Shown here one piece after another: positions 2,118 through 31,631 of a stretch of DNA of 64,000 nt. How positions within the stretch are numbered: the first letter of the stretch is position 1; the number at the start of each line of letters is the position of its first letter. The notes beneath the pieces were generated by a model, which did not search any database, had not been told where the DNA came from, and was given only the letters and a program-made list of their open reading frames with translations. The position numbers were made by a program, and so were the translations under genes. Origin of the DNA: an uncultured Eubacteriales bacterium (GTDB lineage: Bacteria > Bacillota > Clostridia > Peptostreptococcales > Anaerovoracaceae). The stretch spans positions 1-64,000 of the forward strand of contig CADATO010000006.1 in assembly GCA_902790905.1 (NCBI GenBank). The letters run 5' to 3'.

Positions 2118-4571
2118 TTATCTCCTGATTGATTCAAATACCTGGTCTGCAAAGTGTACAGTGGCCATGGCGTCTTTGGCGTATTGGTCCGCGCCGATGC
2201 GGCAGGCGTATTCCTCGTTGAGAACCGCGCCGCCAACGACGACGAGGGCATCTTTTTTCTGTTCGCGCAGCAGTCGGATGGTGTCCTCCATGCTGCCTAC
2301 GGTGGTGGTCATGAGGGCGCTCAGACCGACGACCTTGATGTCATCCTTAAGCGCCGCGTCGACGATCACCTGCGGATCGACATCTTTGCCGAGATCGATG
2401 ACCTGGTAGCCGTAGTTTTCGAGCAGCACTTTGACGATGTTCTTGCCGATGTCGTGGATATCTCCCTTGACCGTGGCGAGGATGACCTTTTCTTTCTGCT
2501 CCTGCACCAGATCCTGCATCGACTCGTTGATTACGGCGAAAGCGGCTTTGGCGGCTTCCGCGCCCATCAGCAGCTGCGGCAGGAAGAGGCTGCCGTCCTC
2601 AAAACCTTTCCCGACTTCATCGAGCGCCGGGATGAGGATGTCGTTGACGACCGTCATCGGCGGAACGCCTTCGTCGAGTGCCTCTTTCGTTTTCTCGGCG
2701 GCGAGTTTTTCGATGCCGCGGACGATGCAGGCGTACAGGGTGAGGTCGCCGGGGGTGGCTGCTTTTGATGCGGGGCCGGGGGTCGTTTCGGCAGCCGGTT
2801 TGGTACCGGCTGCACCGGTGGTGTCCGCCGAAGCGACAGCGGCCGATGCGGGCAGCGATTCAGCGAGCGCGATATAGTCAAGACAGTTCGGGTCCTGATT
2901 GGTCAGCGCCAGATATGTATGATAGGCCAGGCGGATGTGCGGGTCAAGGACATTGACGATGCCCAGCGACAGACCGTTCTGCATGGCCAGCGACAGGAAC
3001 TGCGCGTTCAGATGATCGCGGCAAGGCAGCCCGAACGAGACGTTACTTACACCGAGCACGCTGCGGCCGCCCAGTTCGTCCCGGATGCGGCGGATCGTCT
3101 CCAGGGTGACAAGGCCGTTGCGGCCGCCCGTGGAGATGGTCAGCGCCAGCGGGTCGAGGACGATATCTTTTTTATCGATGCCGTAAGAGGCGGCTGTGTC
3201 GTAGATCTTCTTTGCGATGGCGATGCGCCCGTCCGCCGTATTGGGGATGCCGTTTTCATCGAGCAGCAGGCCGATGATGACGCCGCCGTATTTTTTCACG
3301 AGCGGGAACAGCTTTTCCATCTTTTCCTGTTCGCCTGTGACCGAATTGAGCAGGGGTTTGCCATTATAGATCCGCATGCCGCGTTCCATGGCATCTGCAT
3401 CGCTGGTGTCCAGGCACAGGGGCAGCGCCGTGGTAGCCTGGAGTCTGGCAACAAGGCCAGCCAGGATGGCAGGCTCGTCGATATCGGGCACGCCGACGTT
3501 GACATCGAGGATCGCTGCATCGGTATCCTCCTGCCGGAGCCCTTCTGCGAGCAGGGTGTCCAGTTCTCCTTTCTCAAGGGAGGCGCGCATCTTCTTCCCG
3601 ATGCTGGGATTGATGCGTTCGCCGATCAGGAGCGGCTTTTCGCCGATCACAACGGCGCGGGAGAAGGAGGACACGATGGTCCGCTCTTTGCGCAGCGGCG
3701 CCTTGAACGGGATCTCTTTGCAGACCTCGATGGTCTTGCGAATGTGCTCCGGGCCGGTGCCGCAGCAGCCGCCGGCGCCTGCGATGCCGAGGGCGGCGAG
3801 CTGTTTCATATAGCCTGCGAACTGGTCCGCATCGATGTCGTAACTGGTCACGCCGTTCTCGCTGCGCGGCAGGCCCGCATTCGGATTGGCGATGATGGGG
3901 AGTGAACTCGCAGCCACCAGTCTGGTCACGACTGGGATCATCTGTTTCGGGCCGAGGCTGCAGTTGACGCCGAGCGCATCGACGCCCAGCCCCTCCAGCA
4001 TAGCCACCATGGACTCTGGGGTACCGCCGGTGAGCATCTTGCCGTGTTCGTCAAAGACCATCGTCACAAAGACGGGGAGGTCTGTGTTTTCTTTGGCGCC
4101 CAGGACGGCGGCTTTGGTCTCGTAGCTGTCGGACATGGTTTCGATCAGCACGAGGTCTGCGCCGGCCTGTTGCCCGAGGCGTGCAACTTCACCGTACACG
4201 GAGACGGCTTCTTCAAAAGGAAGATCTCCCATCGGCTCCAGCAGTTTGCCGGTGGGACCCATGTCGATGGTGATGAAGGCATCTTCACGGCCCGTGCGGC
4301 GGCGCGCCTCTTTGGCGTGCTGCACCGCGGCGGTGACGATCTCTTCGAGGTTGTCCGGATATTTCAGGCGGTTTGCACCGAAGGTATTGGCGTTGATGAC
4401 GTCGCTGCCAGCCTCAAGATAGCCTGCATGCAGGGCAACGATCTCTTCGGGATGCGAGAGGTTCCAGGTCTCGGGCAGTTCACCCGGCTTGAGGCCTCTT
4501 GCCTGCAGAATGCTGCCGGTGCCGCCGTCGAAGTAGAGTCTGCGTTTTCTTATCTCAGTGCGGATATCCAT
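2118..4571 (-). CDS. metH: Cobalamin-dependent methionine synthase, short form without activation domain
   Basis: Transfers the methyl group of methyltetrahydrofolate to homocysteine through protein-bound cobalamin. Domains in order: homocysteine-binding barrel (about 1-290) with the zinc Cys pair in GGCCGTG near residue 268 and Cys in VNCSLGP; pterin-binding barrel (about 310-570) beginning LIGERINPSIGKK; a Pro/Ala/Thr-rich linker (about 580-610); the B12 cap helix bundle; and the Rossmann B12 domain with DIHDIGKN near residue 703, whose His is the axial cobalt ligand. At 817 residues it ends after the B12 domain, so the C-terminal SAM-dependent reactivation domain of the E. coli enzyme (about 1230 residues) is missing; this is common in Firmicutes, which use separate reactivation factors. 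No S-box is visible upstream. Ribosome site AAAGAGA precedes the ATG. Confidence 0.92.
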   Translation of the reverse strand: MDIRTEIRKRRLYFDGGTGSILQARGLKPGELPETWNLSHPEEIVALHAGYLEAGSDVINANTFGANRLKYPDNLEEIVTAAVQHAKEARRRTGREDAFITIDMGPTGKLLEPMGDLPFEEAVSVYGEVARLGQQAGADLVLIETMSDSYETKAAVLGAKENTDLPVFVTMVFDEHGKMLTGGTPESMVAMLEGLGVDALGVNCSLGPKQMIPVVTRLVAASSLPIIANPNAGLPRSENGVTSYDIDADQFAGYMKQLAALGIAGAGGCCGTGPEHIRKTIEVCKEIPFKAPLRKERTIVSSFSRAVVIGEKPLLIGERINPSIGKKMRASLEKGELDTLLAEGLRQEDTDAAILDVNVGVPDIDEPAILAGLVARLQATTALPLCLDTSDADAMERGMRIYNGKPLLNSVTGEQEKMEKLFPLVKKYGGVIIGLLLDENGIPNTADGRIAIAKKIYDTAASYGIDKKDIVLDPLALTISTGGRNGLVTLETIRRIRDELGGRSVLGVSNVSFGLPCRDHLNAQFLSLAMQNGLSLGIVNVLDPHIRLAYHTYLALTNQDPNCLDYIALAESLPASAAVASADTTGAAGTKPAAETTPGPASKAATPGDLTLYACIVRGIEKLAAEKTKEALDEGVPPMTVVNDILIPALDEVGKGFEDGSLFLPQLLMGAEAAKAAFAVINESMQDLVQEQKEKVILATVKGDIHDIGKNIVKVLLENYGYQVIDLGKDVDPQVIVDAALKDDIKVVGLSALMTTTVGSMEDTIRLLREQKKDALVVVGGAVLNEEYACRIGADQYAKDAMATVHFADQVFESIRR

Positions 4572-16588: not shown

Positions 16589-17584
16589 ATGATTCAGGAT
16601 ATCGCGCCGAAGAAAATCAACAATCACTACGACCCGGCGAAACGCCCCGCGGCGGACAGTTATATACTGTCGTACAGCGGCGGCAACGTGCTGAGCATGC
16701 TGGAAGAAGCAGCGCCTGATACAGACACCAGGACGGAGCAGCCGCTGCAGCTCGTTCTGCCGACGCTGGCTGATCTGAAGGCGACCTGGCAGGAGATCGG
16801 CGAGGCGGATGAAGAGAAGGCGGCGGCCTTTGAGGACTCTCTGATCTATCTGTTCTCCATCGACGAGGACATGTATTTCCTGGCTGAGCCGGATCTCTTC
16901 AGTGAAGTGGATTATCCGAAAGCGGAGGGGATGGCGCTGGACGCTGCGCAGGCGGCCTGCGAAGCATCGGCGGCAGTCGGCATCGGCGGATGGGCATACC
17001 TCAACCCACGCTTTATGCGGCAGTATCTGAAGGAGCCGAAGGATCAAGTCTTTGCGGTTCTGACCGGCGTGCAGCTGGCCCGCTGGTATCATAACAACAG
17101 ATATTGCGGGCGGTGCGGCGCGAAGACACATCTGGATACCAAAGAGCGTATGATTCGCTGCCCGGCGTGCGGCAATATGATCTTCCCGAAGGTGCAGCCG
17201 GCGGTCATCATTGCGGTGACGAACGGCGACAAGCTGCTCCTGACCAAGTATGCAGACCGGCCCCACAAGGCGTTCGCCCTTGTGGCGGGATTTGTCGAGA
17301 TCGGCGAGACGCTGGAAGAATGCGTACAGAGAGAGGTCATGGAAGAGGTGGGCATGAGAGTCAGCAACATCCGCTACTACAAGTCGCAGCCGTGGGGGAT
17401 CGACGACGATCTGCTGGCCGGGTTCTTCTGCGATGTCGATGGGGATGATACCATCCACCTCGATCATCAGGAACTCAAAGAAGGCGCTTGGATGACCAGG
17501 GAGGACGTGCCCGGTGAGCCGGATGACTACAGCCTGACGAATGAGATGATGATGCTGTTCAAGGCAGGTAAAGAGCCGCGCTGA
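16589..17584 (+). CDS. nudC: NudC-like Nudix hydrolase (NAD+/NADH pyrophosphatase)
   Basis: A 331-residue protein with the NudC layout: an N-terminal NUDIX-like domain, a four-Cys zinc ribbon (YCGRCGAK ... CPACGN) near residue 172, then the Nudix domain with the box GFVEIGETLEECVQREVMEEVG near residue 235. NudC hydrolyses NADH and removes NAD caps from RNA. The diagnostic SQPWxxPxS reads SQPWGIDDD here, so the proline and serine are absent and substrate preference may differ. The start follows AGGAGATAC. Closed by the terminator at 17621. Confidence 0.85.
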   Translation: MIQDIAPKKINNHYDPAKRPAADSYILSYSGGNVLSMLEEAAPDTDTRTEQPLQLVLPTLADLKATWQEIGEADEEKAAAFEDSLIYLFSIDEDMYFLAEPDLFSEVDYPKAEGMALDAAQAACEASAAVGIGGWAYLNPRFMRQYLKEPKDQVFAVLTGVQLARWYHNNRYCGRCGAKTHLDTKERMIRCPACGNMIFPKVQPAVIIAVTNGDKLLLTKYADRPHKAFALVAGFVEIGETLEECVQREVMEEVGMRVSNIRYYKSQPWGIDDDLLAGFFCDVDGDDTIHLDHQELKEGAWMTREDVPGEPDDYSLTNEMMMLFKAGKEPR

Positions 17585-24269: not shown

Positions 24270-24298
24270 GTTATCACAAAAGGTATTTGGTAAAATAT
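24270..24298 (+). promoter_or_regulatory. Promoter ahead of the cobalamin riboswitch
   Basis: TTGTTA (24270-24275), a 17-base spacer and TAAAAT (24293-24298), about 20 bases before the riboswitch aptamer. Confidence 0.6.
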
Positions 24299-24317
24299 TC
24301 TTGCATAAAAAGTGAAT

Positions 24318-24490
24318 ATTGCTTTGTGTTCCGGCGGTTCCAAGCCGCCGGCCAAGAGGGAAACAGGTGCAAAGCCTGTGCGGTCCCGCCACTGTAAGGG
24401 AGGAGAGCGTTTCCATGATGTCACTGGCCTGATGGCTGGGAAGACGGAATCGCCCGTTGACGCCCAAGCCAGGAGACCTGCATAAAGCAA
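24318..24490 (+). ncRNA. Cobalamin (B12) riboswitch
   Basis: The plus strand shows the hallmark order of the cobalamin aptamer: a GC-rich helix GGCGGTT CC AAGCCGCC, then AAGAGGGAAACAGGTGC, the core GCGGTCCCGCCACTGTAA, and the B12 box AGCCAGGAGACCTGC at 24467-24481. A terminator stem follows at 24543, so adenosyl- or methylcobalamin binding most likely stops transcription of the large surface-protein gene downstream. It is unusual because the target is neither a known B12 synthesis enzyme nor a classical ABC uptake gene. Confidence 0.93.
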
Positions 24491-24542
24491 CAACTGGAAG
24501 CGCGCTACGGGTAATTAGTGACTGCACTTTGCTAGTATCTTT

Positions 24543-24568
24543 GCCATAGCCTTTGCTATGGCTTTTTT
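24543..24568 (+). terminator. Riboswitch-controlled terminator
   Basis: Stem GCCATAGC / GCTATGGC followed by TTTTTT, 60 bases after the B12 box. This is the expected expression platform of a transcription-terminating riboswitch. Confidence 0.88.
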
Positions 24569-24655
24569 AAAGGGTTTTCTTCCTATGCTTTACCTGCCGC
24601 GATGTCTTCCGGGGCAGGTATTTTGTTCTATTTCTAAATAAGAAAGGGGGAAAAG

Positions 24656-27600
24656 ATGAACAAGGCAAGTAATGCGGGCATAGGAAAACGTCTCCTCATG
24701 CTCCTCCTGTCAATTGCCATGGTATTCACGATGATGCCGCTGACATCTGCTGTGAGTTATGCAGACGAAGCGACACCCATCACGAGCGCGGAAGAGTTCG
24801 CGGCCATGGATGCGGCAGGCAACTATGTACTGGCAAATGACATCACCGTCGATACGCCGTATCCGAATGATTTTTCGGGCACATTCGACGGCAACGGTCA
24901 TACCGTCACGCTGGCGATCGAGGCTGATGCAACTTATCAGGCTTTGTTTAAAACCCTGGTCGGCGGTGCAACGATCAAGAATCTTGTGACCGACGGCAGT
25001 GTAGCTGTTACCAGCAAGAGTTACACTGGCGGCGTGGCAGGCAAGGCGAGCGGCGAGGTGACCATTGCGAACTGCGTGAACAATGCGTCGGTTTCCGGTT
25101 ATAAGGCCGTAGGCGGCCTCGTCGGCTGGAGCATGAGCGGTGTTGTGATCACCGGATGCGTGAACAACGGCACAGTGACCGGCGGTAACAACCAGGTCGG
25201 TGGTTTTGTCGGAAACAATTCCACCGGTGCTCTGACGATCGAGAACAGCTATAACACGGGTGCTGTTACCGGTTTCAACATGACCGGCGGCTTCATCGGG
25301 CAGGCAACCAGGTCCGGATCTGCGGATGCACTGGTAAACTGCTATAACACCGGTGCGATCAAAAACACTTCTACGAATACCAGCATTGGTGCGCTGGTGG
25401 GCAACAAGTCCAACAGTGGCACAGTCACCAACTGCTACTTCCTCGAAGGTTCGGCAGCGGTTGCGGTCGGCGGCGCGACAGTTGAAGGTGCTTCCTCCAA
25501 GACAGCTGATGAGATGAAGGCCGGCGAATTTGTCACGGCGCTGAACGGCGATGGCGAAGCGTTCGCGATGGATACAGACAGCATTAACGGCGGCTATCCG
25601 GTCCTGTCCTGGCAGGGCGGCGGCAGCGTTGAGCCGGAAGTGCCCGTTCCGGTGACGGCAGTCACGATCGAGGGCGAGGCAAAGACCGGCGAAACACTGA
25701 CAGCCGTTGCAACCGGCGCGGACGGTGCGGAGCCGACCAATGTCACCTATCAGTGGCAGTACGAATACAGTGAATATGATGACTGGGAAGAAGATTGGGT
25801 CACAGATTACTATGATATCGATGGCGCAAAGGACGCTACATTTGTAATCCCGGCTGACATGGCGGGCAAGAAACTGCGCGTCATCGTAAAGGGTGAAGAA
25901 AACTCCAGTGCAACATCCGAGCTTACCGCAGCTGTTGCGAAGGGCGACGATGCCCTGGTTGCAGAAGCAGCCGATGCACTCAAAAATCCGTTCGCAGCAG
26001 AGTACAAAGAAGCGGCGACCGTGACACTGCCTGCGGAGGGCAAGAACGGCGCGGCTATTACCTGGGCGAGCAGCGATGCTGCGGTCATTAGCAATGACGG
26101 CGTCATCACGCTCCCCGAGACAGGCATCAGCGAAGTCACGATGACCGCCACACTCACAATTGGCGATAAGAGCGCGACGAAAGAGTTCAAGGTCTCCGTC
26201 ATCTCCGAGGCGGCGCAGACCGACGCGGCGGTCGTTGACCAGGTGCTCGACAAGTTCAAGTACGGCACGCTCAACCCGCAGTTCGGCACAGACACGAACA
26301 TCATCGACTACATGATGCGTCTTGCAGGCAATCCGGAAGGCGTCACCATCCAGATGACCTCCTGCTCCGAGCCGGACTACATCGCGGAGAACGGCGACAT
26401 CACGTACTTCTTCCGCGCGGTCGACATGACCAAACCCGGATTCAGCGACATCGGCTGGAAATACGTGCAGCCCGAAGTAACGTTCACGGTCAGCAAGGGC
26501 GATGTCACAAAGACTCTCGAGAAGAAGGCCAACATCTACTGGGATCAGGACAAGCTCAAGGCTGACCTGAAAGAGAAGGTCCTCGACAAGATCACAGAAG
26601 ACACCATCAAGGGCGAGAACGAGTCCCTGGCAAGCGTCAGCAAGCCGCTGAGCCTGCCGCAGAGACCGACGAGCTATGTCTGGGTCGAATGGACTTCGAG
26701 CGACGAGGACGTCCTGGCGATCACCAAGCCGTCCGGCTACTCCGAAGAGCCGTGGACCGCAACGCCCAAGAAAGGCGCCGAAGAGAAGACCGTCACGCTG
26801 ACGGCCAAACTGACGAGCTTTAACTCCACCAACATCGGCACGGAAGATGCCGCGGTCGAGACGGTCACCAAGGACTTCACCGTGACTGTACCGGCGCTTG
26901 GTGAAGAGGAACTCGCGCAGATGCAGAAGGACCTCGACGACAATCTGACGATCGACAAGTTCAAGGTCTTCGGGTCTAATACGGCCATCGATCCGGAAGG
27001 CGTCACGACGGATGTGCAGTATCCGCTGGCGAAGAACACCGGTGTGCCGGAGTATGGCAAGTATACCTTCACCTATGAATCGCTCACGCCGGATGTCCTG
27101 AAAGACAGCGGCTACCGCGGCGATGTCTACCGTCCGAACATCGGCGGCGAGCCGGCAACGGCAACGGTCAAGGTGACCATGAAGATGCGCGACAGCAATC
27201 TGTCCGTCTCCAAGGAACTGTCCTTCAAGGTGCTGCCGCTGACGCAGGAGGAGATCGACAAAGAGATCCAGCTGATGAATGACGTCAAGGAACATTACTA
27301 CGACGGCATCAAGGGTGAGAACACCGACCAGAACGACATCACGGCCGACCTGCACAATTTCCAGGAAGTCCGTTACGATGAGAACGGCGAGCTGGTGTGG
27401 GTCTACAACTACGCGGACCGCAAAGACACCGGCATCAAGCCGGACGATCTCGATCCGGAGCATCTGCAGGAAGCGTACAATCTGTTCCGCTCCAGCCATC
27501 CGGCGATCATCCAGCATGAGAACCTGCGGCTGGTAAGCACACCGCAATACGACACGGAAGTCACGATCGACAGTATCCTGACCAGCATCCAGTTCGGTAA

Positions 27601-29215
27601 ATACGCGGAGCTGTATCCGGACAATGCGGATCTGCAGAAGCTGTACAAGCAGCCTGTATCCGCGACCGTTACGGTCAAGGGCACAGACGGCCCGCAGCCC
27701 GGCGGCGATGACCCTGTTGACCCTGTTGAACCTGCGGATCCCGCGGATGTCACCATGACAGTCAGCAACAAGGGCGTGATTGCACAGGCCAAGGATGGCA
27801 GCGCGATGGTTGAAAAAGAAGTCACGGTCACCGACCTCGATGAGGACGGCCATCTGACCTATGACGAGGCACTCGTTGCGGCGCACGACGCGTACTATGA
27901 AGGCGGCAAGGCCGGGTATGCGACCGGCACATCCCAGTACGGCGCTTACGTCACAAAGCTATGGGGTATTGACACGTCCAACACTCTGTTCCATATAAAC
28001 GGTGAAGGATTCAGTTCCGGCGTTAAGGATACAGAAGTCGCGGAAGGCGATGCACTTTATGCATCTGTCAACAAGGATGATACCTACTATGCTGACTGGT
28101 ATGCACAGTTCGATAAGACGGAGGCCGCTGTCAAGGAGGGGAAAGAAATCACGCTCACAGTGACCGGTCATCTCGGCATGGCGTATACCGATGAAGACAA
28201 AGCAAATGTCCCGCTCGAGGGCATCCAGATCGGCCTTTGGAAAGAGGGCGCTTTCGAAGCAATCGAAGGTGCAGTTACCGACGCGGATGGCAAGGTGACC
28301 TTCACCATGCCGGAAGGCGAATATCTGCTGACAGCAACTGGTACGGTCAAGGACGAAGTTTCCGACTGGTCAACCGGGACAGAGACGACTGTTACTGCGG
28401 ACTGCCCAATCATGGCACCGTACTGCACGCTGGAAGTCTCCAAGGACAATATGCTTGAGCAGATCAAGCAGGATGTCATGGAATCGCTGCAGGACGAAGT
28501 GGACCTTTCCCGGTACAACACCGAGGAACAGGTACAGATTCTCAGCGCACTGGTCAAGGCGCAGGCTGAGATCGCTGCGGCGGGTTCCTCCGACGAGGTA
28601 GACAGCATCGTTGAGAGCTTCAGAGCGCAGGTTGCGGAAGTAGCTACCAAGCAGGGCTGGAGCAAAGAAGACGGCGAGTGGTACTACTACAAAGACGGCG
28701 AAAAACTGACCAACGGCTGGGTGAAGGCCAATGCAGGCTGGTGCTGGATGGATGCGAACGGCAAATGGACCAAGAGCAGATGGATCATTGACAACGGCAG
28801 CTGGTACTACATCAAGCCGGACGGCTACATGGCAGCCAACCAGTGGGTCAAGGCCAGCGGCGGCTGGTGCTACGTCGGCGCAAGCGGACGGATGGTCACC
28901 AACGGCTGGGTGAAAGACAGCAAGGGTTGGTGCTGGATGGGCTCCGACGGCTACTGGGTCAAGAACAGATGGATCCAGGATAAAGGCACGTGGTACTACA
29001 TTAAATCCGATGGCTATATGGCGTCCAGCCAGTGGGTGAAATCCGGAAGCCAATGGTGCTACCTGAAAGCCAGCGGAGCGATGGCAGCCGGAGAATGGGT
29101 CGAGGTTGGCGGTTCCTGGTACTACCTGAAAGCTAACGGCTACATGGCGACAGGCACACAGACCATCAATGGCAAGACCTACAGATTCGACGCATCGGGG
29201 AAATGGATACAGTAG
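24656..29215 (+). CDS. Giant secreted surface protein, cobalamin-regulated, with transcobalamin-like segment and cell-wall-binding repeats
   Basis: A 1519-residue secreted protein. Signal peptide about 1-36 (cleavage after SYA). Residues about 50-300 carry GLUG-type beta-helix repeats (GGLVG, GGFVG, GGFIG). About 335-430 is an Ig-like domain; about 435-870 holds several atrophied bacterial Ig-like (aBig) domains with the WASSD / WTSSD signature. After a Pro/Asp linker (about 1015-1035), residues 1037-1150 contain an EF-hand-like DLDEDGHLTYDEAL and a DUF4430/transcobalamin C-domain-like FHINGEGFSSG...EGDALYASVNKD. A carboxypeptidase-regulatory-like strand domain follows (about 1165-1240), then about nine Trp/Tyr-rich choline-binding-type repeats (about 1335-1519: GWVKANAGWCWMD, GSWYYIKPDGYMA) that anchor to wall polymers. 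Strong AAGGGGGAAAAG site. Regulation by the B12 riboswitch suggests cobalamin capture at the cell surface; binding is inferred, not shown. Confidence 0.85.
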   Translation: MNKASNAGIGKRLLMLLLSIAMVFTMMPLTSAVSYADEATPITSAEEFAAMDAAGNYVLANDITVDTPYPNDFSGTFDGNGHTVTLAIEADATYQALFKTLVGGATIKNLVTDGSVAVTSKSYTGGVAGKASGEVTIANCVNNASVSGYKAVGGLVGWSMSGVVITGCVNNGTVTGGNNQVGGFVGNNSTGALTIENSYNTGAVTGFNMTGGFIGQATRSGSADALVNCYNTGAIKNTSTNTSIGALVGNKSNSGTVTNCYFLEGSAAVAVGGATVEGASSKTADEMKAGEFVTALNGDGEAFAMDTDSINGGYPVLSWQGGGSVEPEVPVPVTAVTIEGEAKTGETLTAVATGADGAEPTNVTYQWQYEYSEYDDWEEDWVTDYYDIDGAKDATFVIPADMAGKKLRVIVKGEENSSATSELTAAVAKGDDALVAEAADALKNPFAAEYKEAATVTLPAEGKNGAAITWASSDAAVISNDGVITLPETGISEVTMTATLTIGDKSATKEFKVSVISEAAQTDAAVVDQVLDKFKYGTLNPQFGTDTNIIDYMMRLAGNPEGVTIQMTSCSEPDYIAENGDITYFFRAVDMTKPGFSDIGWKYVQPEVTFTVSKGDVTKTLEKKANIYWDQDKLKADLKEKVLDKITEDTIKGENESLASVSKPLSLPQRPTSYVWVEWTSSDEDVLAITKPSGYSEEPWTATPKKGAEEKTVTLTAKLTSFNSTNIGTEDAAVETVTKDFTVTVPALGEEELAQMQKDLDDNLTIDKFKVFGSNTAIDPEGVTTDVQYPLAKNTGVPEYGKYTFTYESLTPDVLKDSGYRGDVYRPNIGGEPATATVKVTMKMRDSNLSVSKELSFKVLPLTQEEIDKEIQLMNDVKEHYYDGIKGENTDQNDITADLHNFQEVRYDENGELVWVYNYADRKDTGIKPDDLDPEHLQEAYNLFRSSHPAIIQHENLRLVSTPQYDTEVTIDSILTSIQFGKYAELYPDNADLQKLYKQPVSATVTVKGTDGPQPGGDDPVDPVEPADPADVTMTVSNKGVIAQAKDGSAMVEKEVTVTDLDEDGHLTYDEALVAAHDAYYEGGKAGYATGTSQYGAYVTKLWGIDTSNTLFHINGEGFSSGVKDTEVAEGDALYASVNKDDTYYADWYAQFDKTEAAVKEGKEITLTVTGHLGMAYTDEDKANVPLEGIQIGLWKEGAFEAIEGAVTDADGKVTFTMPEGEYLLTATGTVKDEVSDWSTGTETTVTADCPIMAPYCTLEVSKDNMLEQIKQDVMESLQDEVDLSRYNTEEQVQILSALVKAQAEIAAAGSSDEVDSIVESFRAQVAEVATKQGWSKEDGEWYYYKDGEKLTNGWVKANAGWCWMDANGKWTKSRWIIDNGSWYYIKPDGYMAANQWVKASGGWCYVGASGRMVTNGWVKDSKGWCWMGSDGYWVKNRWIQDKGTWYYIKSDGYMASSQWVKSGSQWCYLKASGAMAAGEWVEVGGSWYYLKANGYMATGTQTINGKTYRFDASGKWIQ

Positions 29216-30211: not shown

Positions 30212-30318
30212 ATCCTTATTAAGAGTGGTGGAGGGACTAGGCCCTATGAAGCCCGGCAACCCGGTGGTGACACATGCGGGTGCCAAATCCTACAGCGTCA
30301 GCTGAAAGATGAGGTGAA
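30212..30318 (+). ncRNA. SAM-I (S-box) riboswitch
   Basis: Contains the conserved S-box core in order: CTTATTAAGAG, GGTGGAGGGACT, GGCCCTATGAAGCC, CGGCAACC and the P3/P4 segment ending AGCTGAAAGATGAG. Followed by a terminator, it should shut off metK when S-adenosylmethionine is plentiful. Confidence 0.95.
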
Positions 30319-30437: not shown

Positions 30438-31631
30438 ATGAAGAGATTATTTACTTCCGAATCCGTCACCGAAGGGCATCCGGACAAGGTCTGCGACCAG
30501 ATCTCGGATGCGATCGTGGATGCGATTCTTGAGCAGGACCCGATGGGGCGCATCGCTGCAGAGACGACCGTCAAGACCGGCTACGCGATGATCATGGGCG
30601 AGATCACCACAGAGTGCTATGTGGACATCCCGAAGATCGCGCGCGAGGTCATCTGCGACATCGGCTACAACAAGAGCGAGTATGGCTTTGACGGCAACAC
30701 CTGCGCGGTCGTGATGGCGGTGGACGAGCAGTCCCCGGATATCGCGATGGGTGTCAATGAGGCGCTGGAGCGCCGCGATGGCGAGGCGGATCCGTACGAC
30801 CAGATCGGCGCCGGCGACCAGGGCATGATGTTCGGCTATGCCTGCGACGAAACGCCGGAGCTGATGCCGATGCCGATCTCCCTGGCGCACAAGCTTTCCA
30901 GACGGCTGAGCGAAGTCCGCAAGGACGGCACGCTGCCGTATCTGCGCCCGGACGGCAAGACCCAGGTGACGGTCGAGTATGACGGGGATCTGCCGAAGCG
31001 CATCGAAGCGGTCGTCGTGTCCACACAGCACGATGAAGAGGTGAACCTGGAGACAATCCGCAAAGACATGATCGAGCATGTTATCCGTCCGGTCATTCCG
31101 GCGGCGCTGCTGGACGATGCGACCAAGTATTTTGTCAATCCGACCGGCAGATTTGTCAAAGGCGGCCCGTATGCCGATTCGGGGTTGACAGGACGGAAAA
31201 TCATAGTAGATACTTACGGAGGATATGCCCGCCACGGCGGCGGCGCATTCAGCGGCAAAGACCCGACAAAGGTGGACCGTTCCGCGGCTTATGCAGCCCG
31301 TTATGTTGCGAAGAACATCGTGGCTGCCGGTGTCGCAAAGCGCTGCGAGATCCAGCTCGCATATGCGATCGGCGTCGCGCATCCGGTCTCTGTCATGGTC
31401 GACAGCTTCGGCACCGGCGTCATTCCGGATGAGGACATCGCGGATATGATCACCCGCCACTTCGATCTTCGCCCGGCGGCGATCATCGACAAGCTGGATC
31501 TTAGAAGACCCATCTACCGTCAGGTCGCGGCATACGGACACTTCGGCCGCACGGATCTCGATCTGACCTGGGAGAGGACCGACAAGGCAGAGGAACTGCG
31601 CGAGGAACTGAAGCTGCAGGAAGCGCTTTAG
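30438..31631 (+). CDS. metK: S-adenosylmethionine synthetase
   Basis: A 397-residue enzyme that makes SAM from methionine and ATP. Signatures: [20 protein letters not shown] at the N-terminus, the ATP motif [12 protein letters not shown] near residue 117, and the P-loop-like [19 protein letters not shown] near residue 265. Full length for the family (about 390). Controlled by the S-box immediately upstream; followed after 93 bases by aspartokinase, so the aspartate-methionine route is clustered. Ribosome site AAAGGACAGG. Confidence 0.97.

Follow-up and report, generated by a model that had tools for sequence, protein, structure and literature searches.

The 1519-codon gene in the window, that is, the whole stretch of 64,000 nucleotides analysed here from the genome of an uncultured Eubacteriales bacterium of the family Anaerovoracaceae (G000), encodes what we take to be a member of the B12 regulon that is bound to the cell wall and captures corrinoid, a reading to which we assign a probability of about 0.72. 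This reading rests on a cobalamin riboswitch ahead of the gene, on the architecture of the protein, on the predicted fold of one of its domains and on a genetic linkage conserved among Clostridia, from which we infer corrinoid binding, a role for Ca2+, a partnership with proteins encoded on C17 of the same genome and the hand-over of the ligand to a transporter. A preliminary description of this DNA had read the purpose of the protein in essentially the same way, and that reading is largely supported, now on broader and firmer grounds that generalise to other genomes, with corrinoid binding as its prediction.

A cobalamin riboswitch precedes a large surface protein

The preliminary description had placed a riboswitch, with its B12 box at 24467, and a terminator directly upstream of the gene, and both are there. 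The covariance model RF00174 matched over its positions 1-189, the full aptamer, scoring 136.1 bits where the gathering threshold is 31.5 bits, and the B12 box read from the sequence (AGCCAGGAGACCTGC) occupies positions 24467-24481. The hairpin that follows at 24543-24570 (GCCATAGC-CTTT-GCTATGGC-TTTTTT) lies 85 bases from the start of the open reading frame and is probably the expression platform of an OFF switch; from the anatomy of this leader, transcription would pass the terminator when adenosylcobalamin is low. The features of the region are as follows.

24309..24499, + strand: cobalamin riboswitch aptamer, class I (RF00174; cmscan, E 3.8e-34)
24543..24570, + strand: intrinsic terminator-like hairpin and U run (sequence; also in the MFE fold)
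24643..24650, + strand: ribosome-binding-site-like AAAGGGGG, read directly from the sequence
24656..29215, + strand: secreted choline-binding-repeat surface protein, 1519 aa (ORF; Pfam/NCBIfam)
24656..24766, + strand: signal-peptide-like N terminus, residues 1-37 (KRLLMLLLSIAMVFTMMPLTSAVSYADEA, by eye from the sequence)
24872..25645, + strand: GLUG-repeat region, residues about 73-330 (PF07581)
25646..27682, + strand: Ig-like / atrophied Ig (aBig_2) stalk, residues about 331-1009 (PF20578)
27725..28078, + strand: EF/SLBB domain, residues 1024-1141 (AlphaFold2 model; PDB structure matches)
27833..27868, + strand: EF-hand-type loop DLDEDGHLTYDE, residues 1060-1071 (sequence; kept in the subfamily alignment)
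28094..28354, + strand: Ig/MG-like beta-sandwich after EF/SLBB, residues about 1147-1233 (AlphaFold2 model)
28652..29209, + strand: choline-binding / cell-wall-binding repeats, residues 1333-1518 (PF01473, PF19127, PF19085; PspC/PspA repeat region)
30213-30315: SAM riboswitch (RF00162; 75.6 bits), upstream of an ORF at 30438 reading as metK

The surface architecture proposed earlier, with Ig-like and choline-binding-type repeats, was recovered by Pfam as choline-binding repeats, aBig_2 and GLUG, the C-terminal PF01473-type repeats scoring 82.6 bits against a cut-off of 20.5. The GLUG region shares 35% identity with a protein of a riboswitch operon in a relative (L039), to which residues 504-1009 are also similar (30% identity, E 1e-54), and the beta-sandwich resembles the MG domains of alpha-2-macroglobulin and C3 (VIA Z about 6). 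No alpha6/alpha6 toroid was found among the Pfam matches of the whole protein.

Beside the gene lies a 402-aa ORF on the opposite strand, and downstream are an ORF reading as an Asp/Glu racemase, the SAM riboswitch and metK, the names being read from the sequence. The statement that no ABC uptake genes are adjacent holds within the window, although elsewhere in the genome a riboswitch operon encodes a BtuFCD-like transporter. Farther off in the window, an ORF at 2118-4571 (-) encodes a MetH-like protein of 817 aa in which the B12-binding part is present; its match to the metH model stops at position 859 of 1182, and the C-terminal activation domain appears absent.

A predicted transcobalamin-like domain with an EF-hand loop

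We use the name EF/SLBB for the EF-hand-bearing subfamily of transcobalamin-beta-like beta-grasp domains to which residues 1024-1141 are assigned. An AlphaFold2 model of residues 1024-1247, computed with eight relatives, had a pLDDT of 83 and a pTM of 0.81. The best nine PDB matches in Foldseek were haptocorrin, transcobalamin, intrinsic factor and the Ruminococcus gnavus protein 3u7z (probability 1.00, E 1.5e-3 to 3.3e-2). With VIA-align, 14 of the top 15 PDB entries were transcobalamin, haptocorrin or intrinsic factor and the other was 3u7z (Z 10.6-12.0 over 92-102 residues, 2.3-3.4 A), the next different fold scoring Z 7.9. The alignment to the animal carriers falls on their beta domain and extends over 96-102 residues, at a sequence identity of 14-20%. 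Judged by topology, the model has a beta-hairpin insert after the helix (H46-57, H61-64, then E65-70, E73-79 and the remaining strands), and G17, G42 and G81, in the numbering of subfamily alignment A4, are nearly invariant and are candidates for the two glycines that the superfamily has at set positions.

The preliminary description had called this segment a DUF4430-like fold resembling the C-terminal domain of transcobalamin. The structural half of that claim is borne out by the model, but the Pfam assignment falls short: PF14478 was not detected in the whole 1519-aa protein at E<=1, the isolated segment reached 16.2 bits against a cut-off of 23.8 (E 0.015), and 5/27 subfamily members reached E<=0.1. 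In a profile-profile comparison, EF/SLBB matched canonical DUF4430 with E 3.8e-4 and with the NG and GD motifs in register, against E 0.36 for an unrelated control. When PDB sequences were searched with the EF/SLBB profile, nearly all matches were EF-hand proteins (lanmodulin, calmodulin-like) and none was transcobalamin, and the canonical DUF4430 profile returned nothing useful. Because these direct searches missed transcobalamin, the relation to it rests on the predicted structure together with the weak profile-profile match. Residues 1024-1141 belong to a subfamily that is distinct from, but related to, DUF4430.

The EF-hand-like loop noticed earlier in the sequence is a constant of the subfamily. 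It sits between strand 2 and the helix, in its loose form in all 27 aligned members and in its strict form in 23 of them, a form that arises in 0.07% of shuffles. Binding of Ca2+ by this loop is probable.

The domain is linked to cobalamin riboswitches across Clostridia

A survey of Clostridia, suggested earlier for riboswitch and DUF4430 pairs, was made for the EF/SLBB domain, which was found in 18 genomes among 149 sampled from the family and in 42 among 291 from the class; the named relatives are mostly MAGs from the ruminant gut. RF00174 was mapped in 42 domain-bearing genomes (15 of the 18 from the family and 27 from the class sample), three family genomes and weaker class matches being left out with no choice by riboswitch content. 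A simple regular expression for the B12 box, tried as a riboswitch finder, recovered only 15 of 24 known riboswitches and was replaced by Rfam. A same-strand RF00174 match lay upstream of the domain within 8 kb in 35/42 genomes, spanning 11 families, and within 1 kb in 24/42, against 0.24 and 0.03 expected, these expectations being derived from riboswitch density under uniform placement and rounded genome sizes, with genomes that are not independent, so that Poisson tail probabilities are not to be taken at face value. Of the canonical DUF4430 loci compared from the same family, 7/20 carry a riboswitch. Exactly one RF00174 match was present in 20 of the 42 genomes, and in 19 of these 20 it fronts the EF/SLBB gene. 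Seven genomes had no linked riboswitch, five of them having no RF00174 match at all.

This distribution bears on the simplest alternative, namely that the protein is an ordinary adhesin or wall protein next to a riboswitch by coincidence. GLUG, Ig-like and choline-binding repeats are indeed common among adhesins; however, a linkage kept in 35 genomes contradicts a chance neighbourhood, and among the partner genes described below are components of ECF transporters and, in a single operon, the gene for a corrinoid adenosyltransferase, so that we regard coincidence as very improbable.

Partner genes in riboswitch operons of relatives

Partner genes were examined in 17 riboswitch operons, selected for having a riboswitch. 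Canonical DUF4430 was encoded in all 17 and an alpha/alpha toroid in 13 (the query being the toroid alone, without SLH repeats); an ECF ATPase with an S component was found in six, an EcfT-like protein in five and the corrinoid adenosyltransferase CobA (PF02572) in one. Some relatives join these parts in a single protein, made of EF/SLBB, toroid and DUF4430 in L123 and of a toroid, two EF/SLBB domains and DUF4430 in L137. In L042 and L043 the order is riboswitch, DUF4430, toroid and EF/SLBB surface protein. In L039 the riboswitch is followed by a homolog of window residues 73-1009, a subtilase and an EF/SLBB protein. Because L039 encodes the stalk homolog and the EF/SLBB domain in separate genes, the window protein seems to unite parts that elsewhere have genes of their own within one riboswitch operon.

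Two further observations were made in these loci. The subtilase-family protease of L039 (7482-9863) stands between two receptor-like genes of a cobalamin-riboswitch operon, and L041 carries a second cobalamin riboswitch on the opposite strand, adjoining a Clostridiales-1 RNA (16599-16744 (-) and 16863-17021 (+)).

The frequency of the partners raises the alternative that the protein belongs to the corrinoid-uptake machinery with EF/SLBB as a Ca2+-stabilised adaptor or docking domain, the toroid and the canonical DUF4430 being the parts that bind the ligand. The universal EF-hand loop would suit such a domain, as would a riboswitch-free copy fused to an alkaline phosphatase (L038:9908-14056), which suggests reuse of the domain outside B12 uptake. 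On the other hand, the riboswitch-linked proteins of L126 (246 aa) and L124 (268 aa) consist of little except the EF/SLBB domain, and the fold is nearest to ligand-binding beta domains. We consider a purely docking role unlikely, though the most plausible of the alternatives to corrinoid capture.

B12-linked loci and corrin-synthesis genes in the source genome

In the source genome (2.0 Mb, 97% complete), RF00174 matched at six sites, including that of the window. One, on C7, directly precedes a 1977-aa secreted choline-binding-repeat protein (L009:3758-9691). Another stands ahead of the gene for a secreted 860-aa protein, behind which a substrate-binding protein, a permease, an ATPase and CbiK are encoded, the ATPase having corrinoid BtuD as its best model, below the cut-off (208.6 against 537). 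A third, on C20, leads a secreted CbiK-like protein (L010:10679-12981, 217 bits), and yet another precedes a hemB-type tetrapyrrole cluster. By eye, the 1977-aa protein contains another DUF4430-like segment as well as NEAT-like segments, one of them at a NEAT E of 0.0023; the lipoprotein beside the CbiK-like gene has a sub-threshold NEAT match (E 5e-7). The sixth match, a further C20 riboswitch at L010:3384-3585 (C20:14383-14584), is separated from the next long ORF by about 1 kb.

Since cbiD, F, G, H, ET, A and P follow the CbiK operon on C7, this organism probably makes corrinoid itself. The earlier statement that the receptor is made when B12 is scarce can be read as a statement on the predicted regulation, given the riboswitch control, but not as one on dependence, because a genome encoding corrin synthesis is no obvious auxotroph.

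The same genes favour an alternative in which the protein would scavenge a different tetrapyrrole or cobalt (heme, sirohydrochlorin or a cobalt-loaded precursor) for corrin synthesis, a pathway under the same riboswitch regulon. It would account for the CbiK-like secreted protein, the NEAT-like lipoprotein and the hemB-type genes behind other riboswitches of this genome, and for the strong CbiK match found in L036 within the same secreted protein as the EF/SLBB domain. Against it, CbiD is absent from 29 of 37 tested domain-bearing genomes, including all 19 in which the sole riboswitch fronts the EF/SLBB gene, so that these 29 would have no use for corrin precursors, whereas proteins with a B12-binding domain are present in 35/37 (17/19 of the sole-riboswitch genomes), and the proteins matched by the fold are cobalamin binders. 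We hold this alternative to be improbable.

On C17, a paralog of the EF/SLBB domain (57%) has as neighbours a membrane-anchored canonical DUF4430 protein (L012:2368-3678) and an alpha/alpha-toroid protein (L012:377-2434), whose predicted structure is closer to terpene cyclases (Z 23.8) than to transcobalamin, intrinsic factor and haptocorrin (Z 19-19.7). The leader of the paralog (L012:6513-6656 (-)), searched alone, gave a sub-threshold match to the AdoCbl riboswitch (30 bits against a cut-off of 50, E 9.4e-4), and this divergent candidate may be a variant class.

Proposed function and comparison with known systems

In the corrinoid-capture reading, low adenosylcobalamin would allow transcription through the terminator, and the secreted protein would be fixed to the wall through its choline-binding repeats, with GLUG and Ig-like domains as its stalk. 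The EF/SLBB domain, with its probable Ca2+-binding loop, would help to bind the corrinoid, most likely jointly with two partners, an alpha/alpha-toroid protein and a DUF4430 protein anchored in the membrane. Candidates for both are encoded in this genome on C17 beside the paralog; in relatives they share one riboswitch operon or one protein with the domain. A membrane transporter, of the ECF type in several relatives and BtuFCD-like in the source genome, would next receive the ligand. For capture of host-bound cobalamin, which the preliminary description had considered, no evidence was found in either direction. Counting against this reading are the seven genomes without a linked riboswitch, the phosphatase fusion of L038, the greater similarity of the C17 toroid to terpene cyclases and the corrin-synthesis operon of the source genome; moreover, the CbiK and NEAT-like partners would equally fit another tetrapyrrole or cobalt.

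More tentatively, and with less than even odds, many Clostridia may possess a wall-anchored "split intrinsic factor", in which a surface receptor of the transcobalamin-beta type with an EF-hand, an alpha toroid encoded apart from it and a DUF4430 beta domain anchored in the membrane would close round a corrinoid, with Ca2+ controlling EF/SLBB, and would supply a transporter of the ECF or BtuCD type; many species have the genome's only cobalamin riboswitch at this operon. The window protein resembles animal transcobalamin, intrinsic factor and haptocorrin in its predicted beta-domain fold and in the existence of a partner toroid; it differs in its low sequence identity and in that the two halves lie on separate genes in the source genome, the toroid being outside the window protein. 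A precedent for a split receptor is given by human transcobalamin, whose separate TC-alpha and TC-beta assemble only with cobalamin, isolated TC-beta binding corrinoid (Bloch et al. 2017; PMC5599065).

Among bacterial proteins, Burroughs et al. (2007) defined a transcobalamin-like SLBB clade, described fusions to toroids, CbiO/CbiQ genes nearby and members secreted by Gram-positive bacteria, and predicted that the clade scavenges B12; the paper makes no mention of riboswitches (PMC1796856). EF/SLBB proteins share with that clade and with Pfam DUF4430 the beta-grasp fold, secretion to the surface, an association with toroids, with a second SLBB protein and with transporter genes of the CbiO/CbiQ kind, and the predicted part in B12 scavenging. 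They differ in scoring below the Pfam cut-off, in the EF-hand loop of the 27 aligned members, in the cobalamin riboswitch linkage, in giant choline-binding or SLH architectures, in the CbiK fusion and in occurring in a genome that encodes corrin synthesis. R. gnavus RUMGNA_00854 (PDB 3u7z), a solved bacterial structure, has the same fold (Z 10.6 over 92 residues), but its solved chain has 97 residues and is titled a putative metal-binding protein.

BtuG of Bacteroides is a beta-propeller. Together with BtuH and BtuJ (DUF4465), it belongs to the surface B12-binding lipoproteins (PMC6143338, PMC8941943, PMC13398666), whose btuG, btuH and btuJ loci are riboswitch-regulated, BtuJ being a beta-jelly roll (PMC13398666). 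The window protein is like these functional counterparts in riboswitch control and, as predicted, in surface B12 capture, but those are Gram-negative lipoproteins and not Gram-positive wall proteins.

No link of the DUF4430 or EF/SLBB domain to riboswitches was found in the open-licence literature, and the linkage is what is new with respect to the 2007 prediction: it is regulatory evidence for a role in B12 metabolism, independent of the fold. While the Bacteroides receptors are well studied, surface B12 capture by Gram-positive bacteria of the gut and rumen is largely undescribed in that literature, and the linkage singles out specific gene sets and genomes for experimental work. It is also relevant to the proposed origin of animal transcobalamin and intrinsic factor in Gram-positive bacteria, from which animals would have acquired them.
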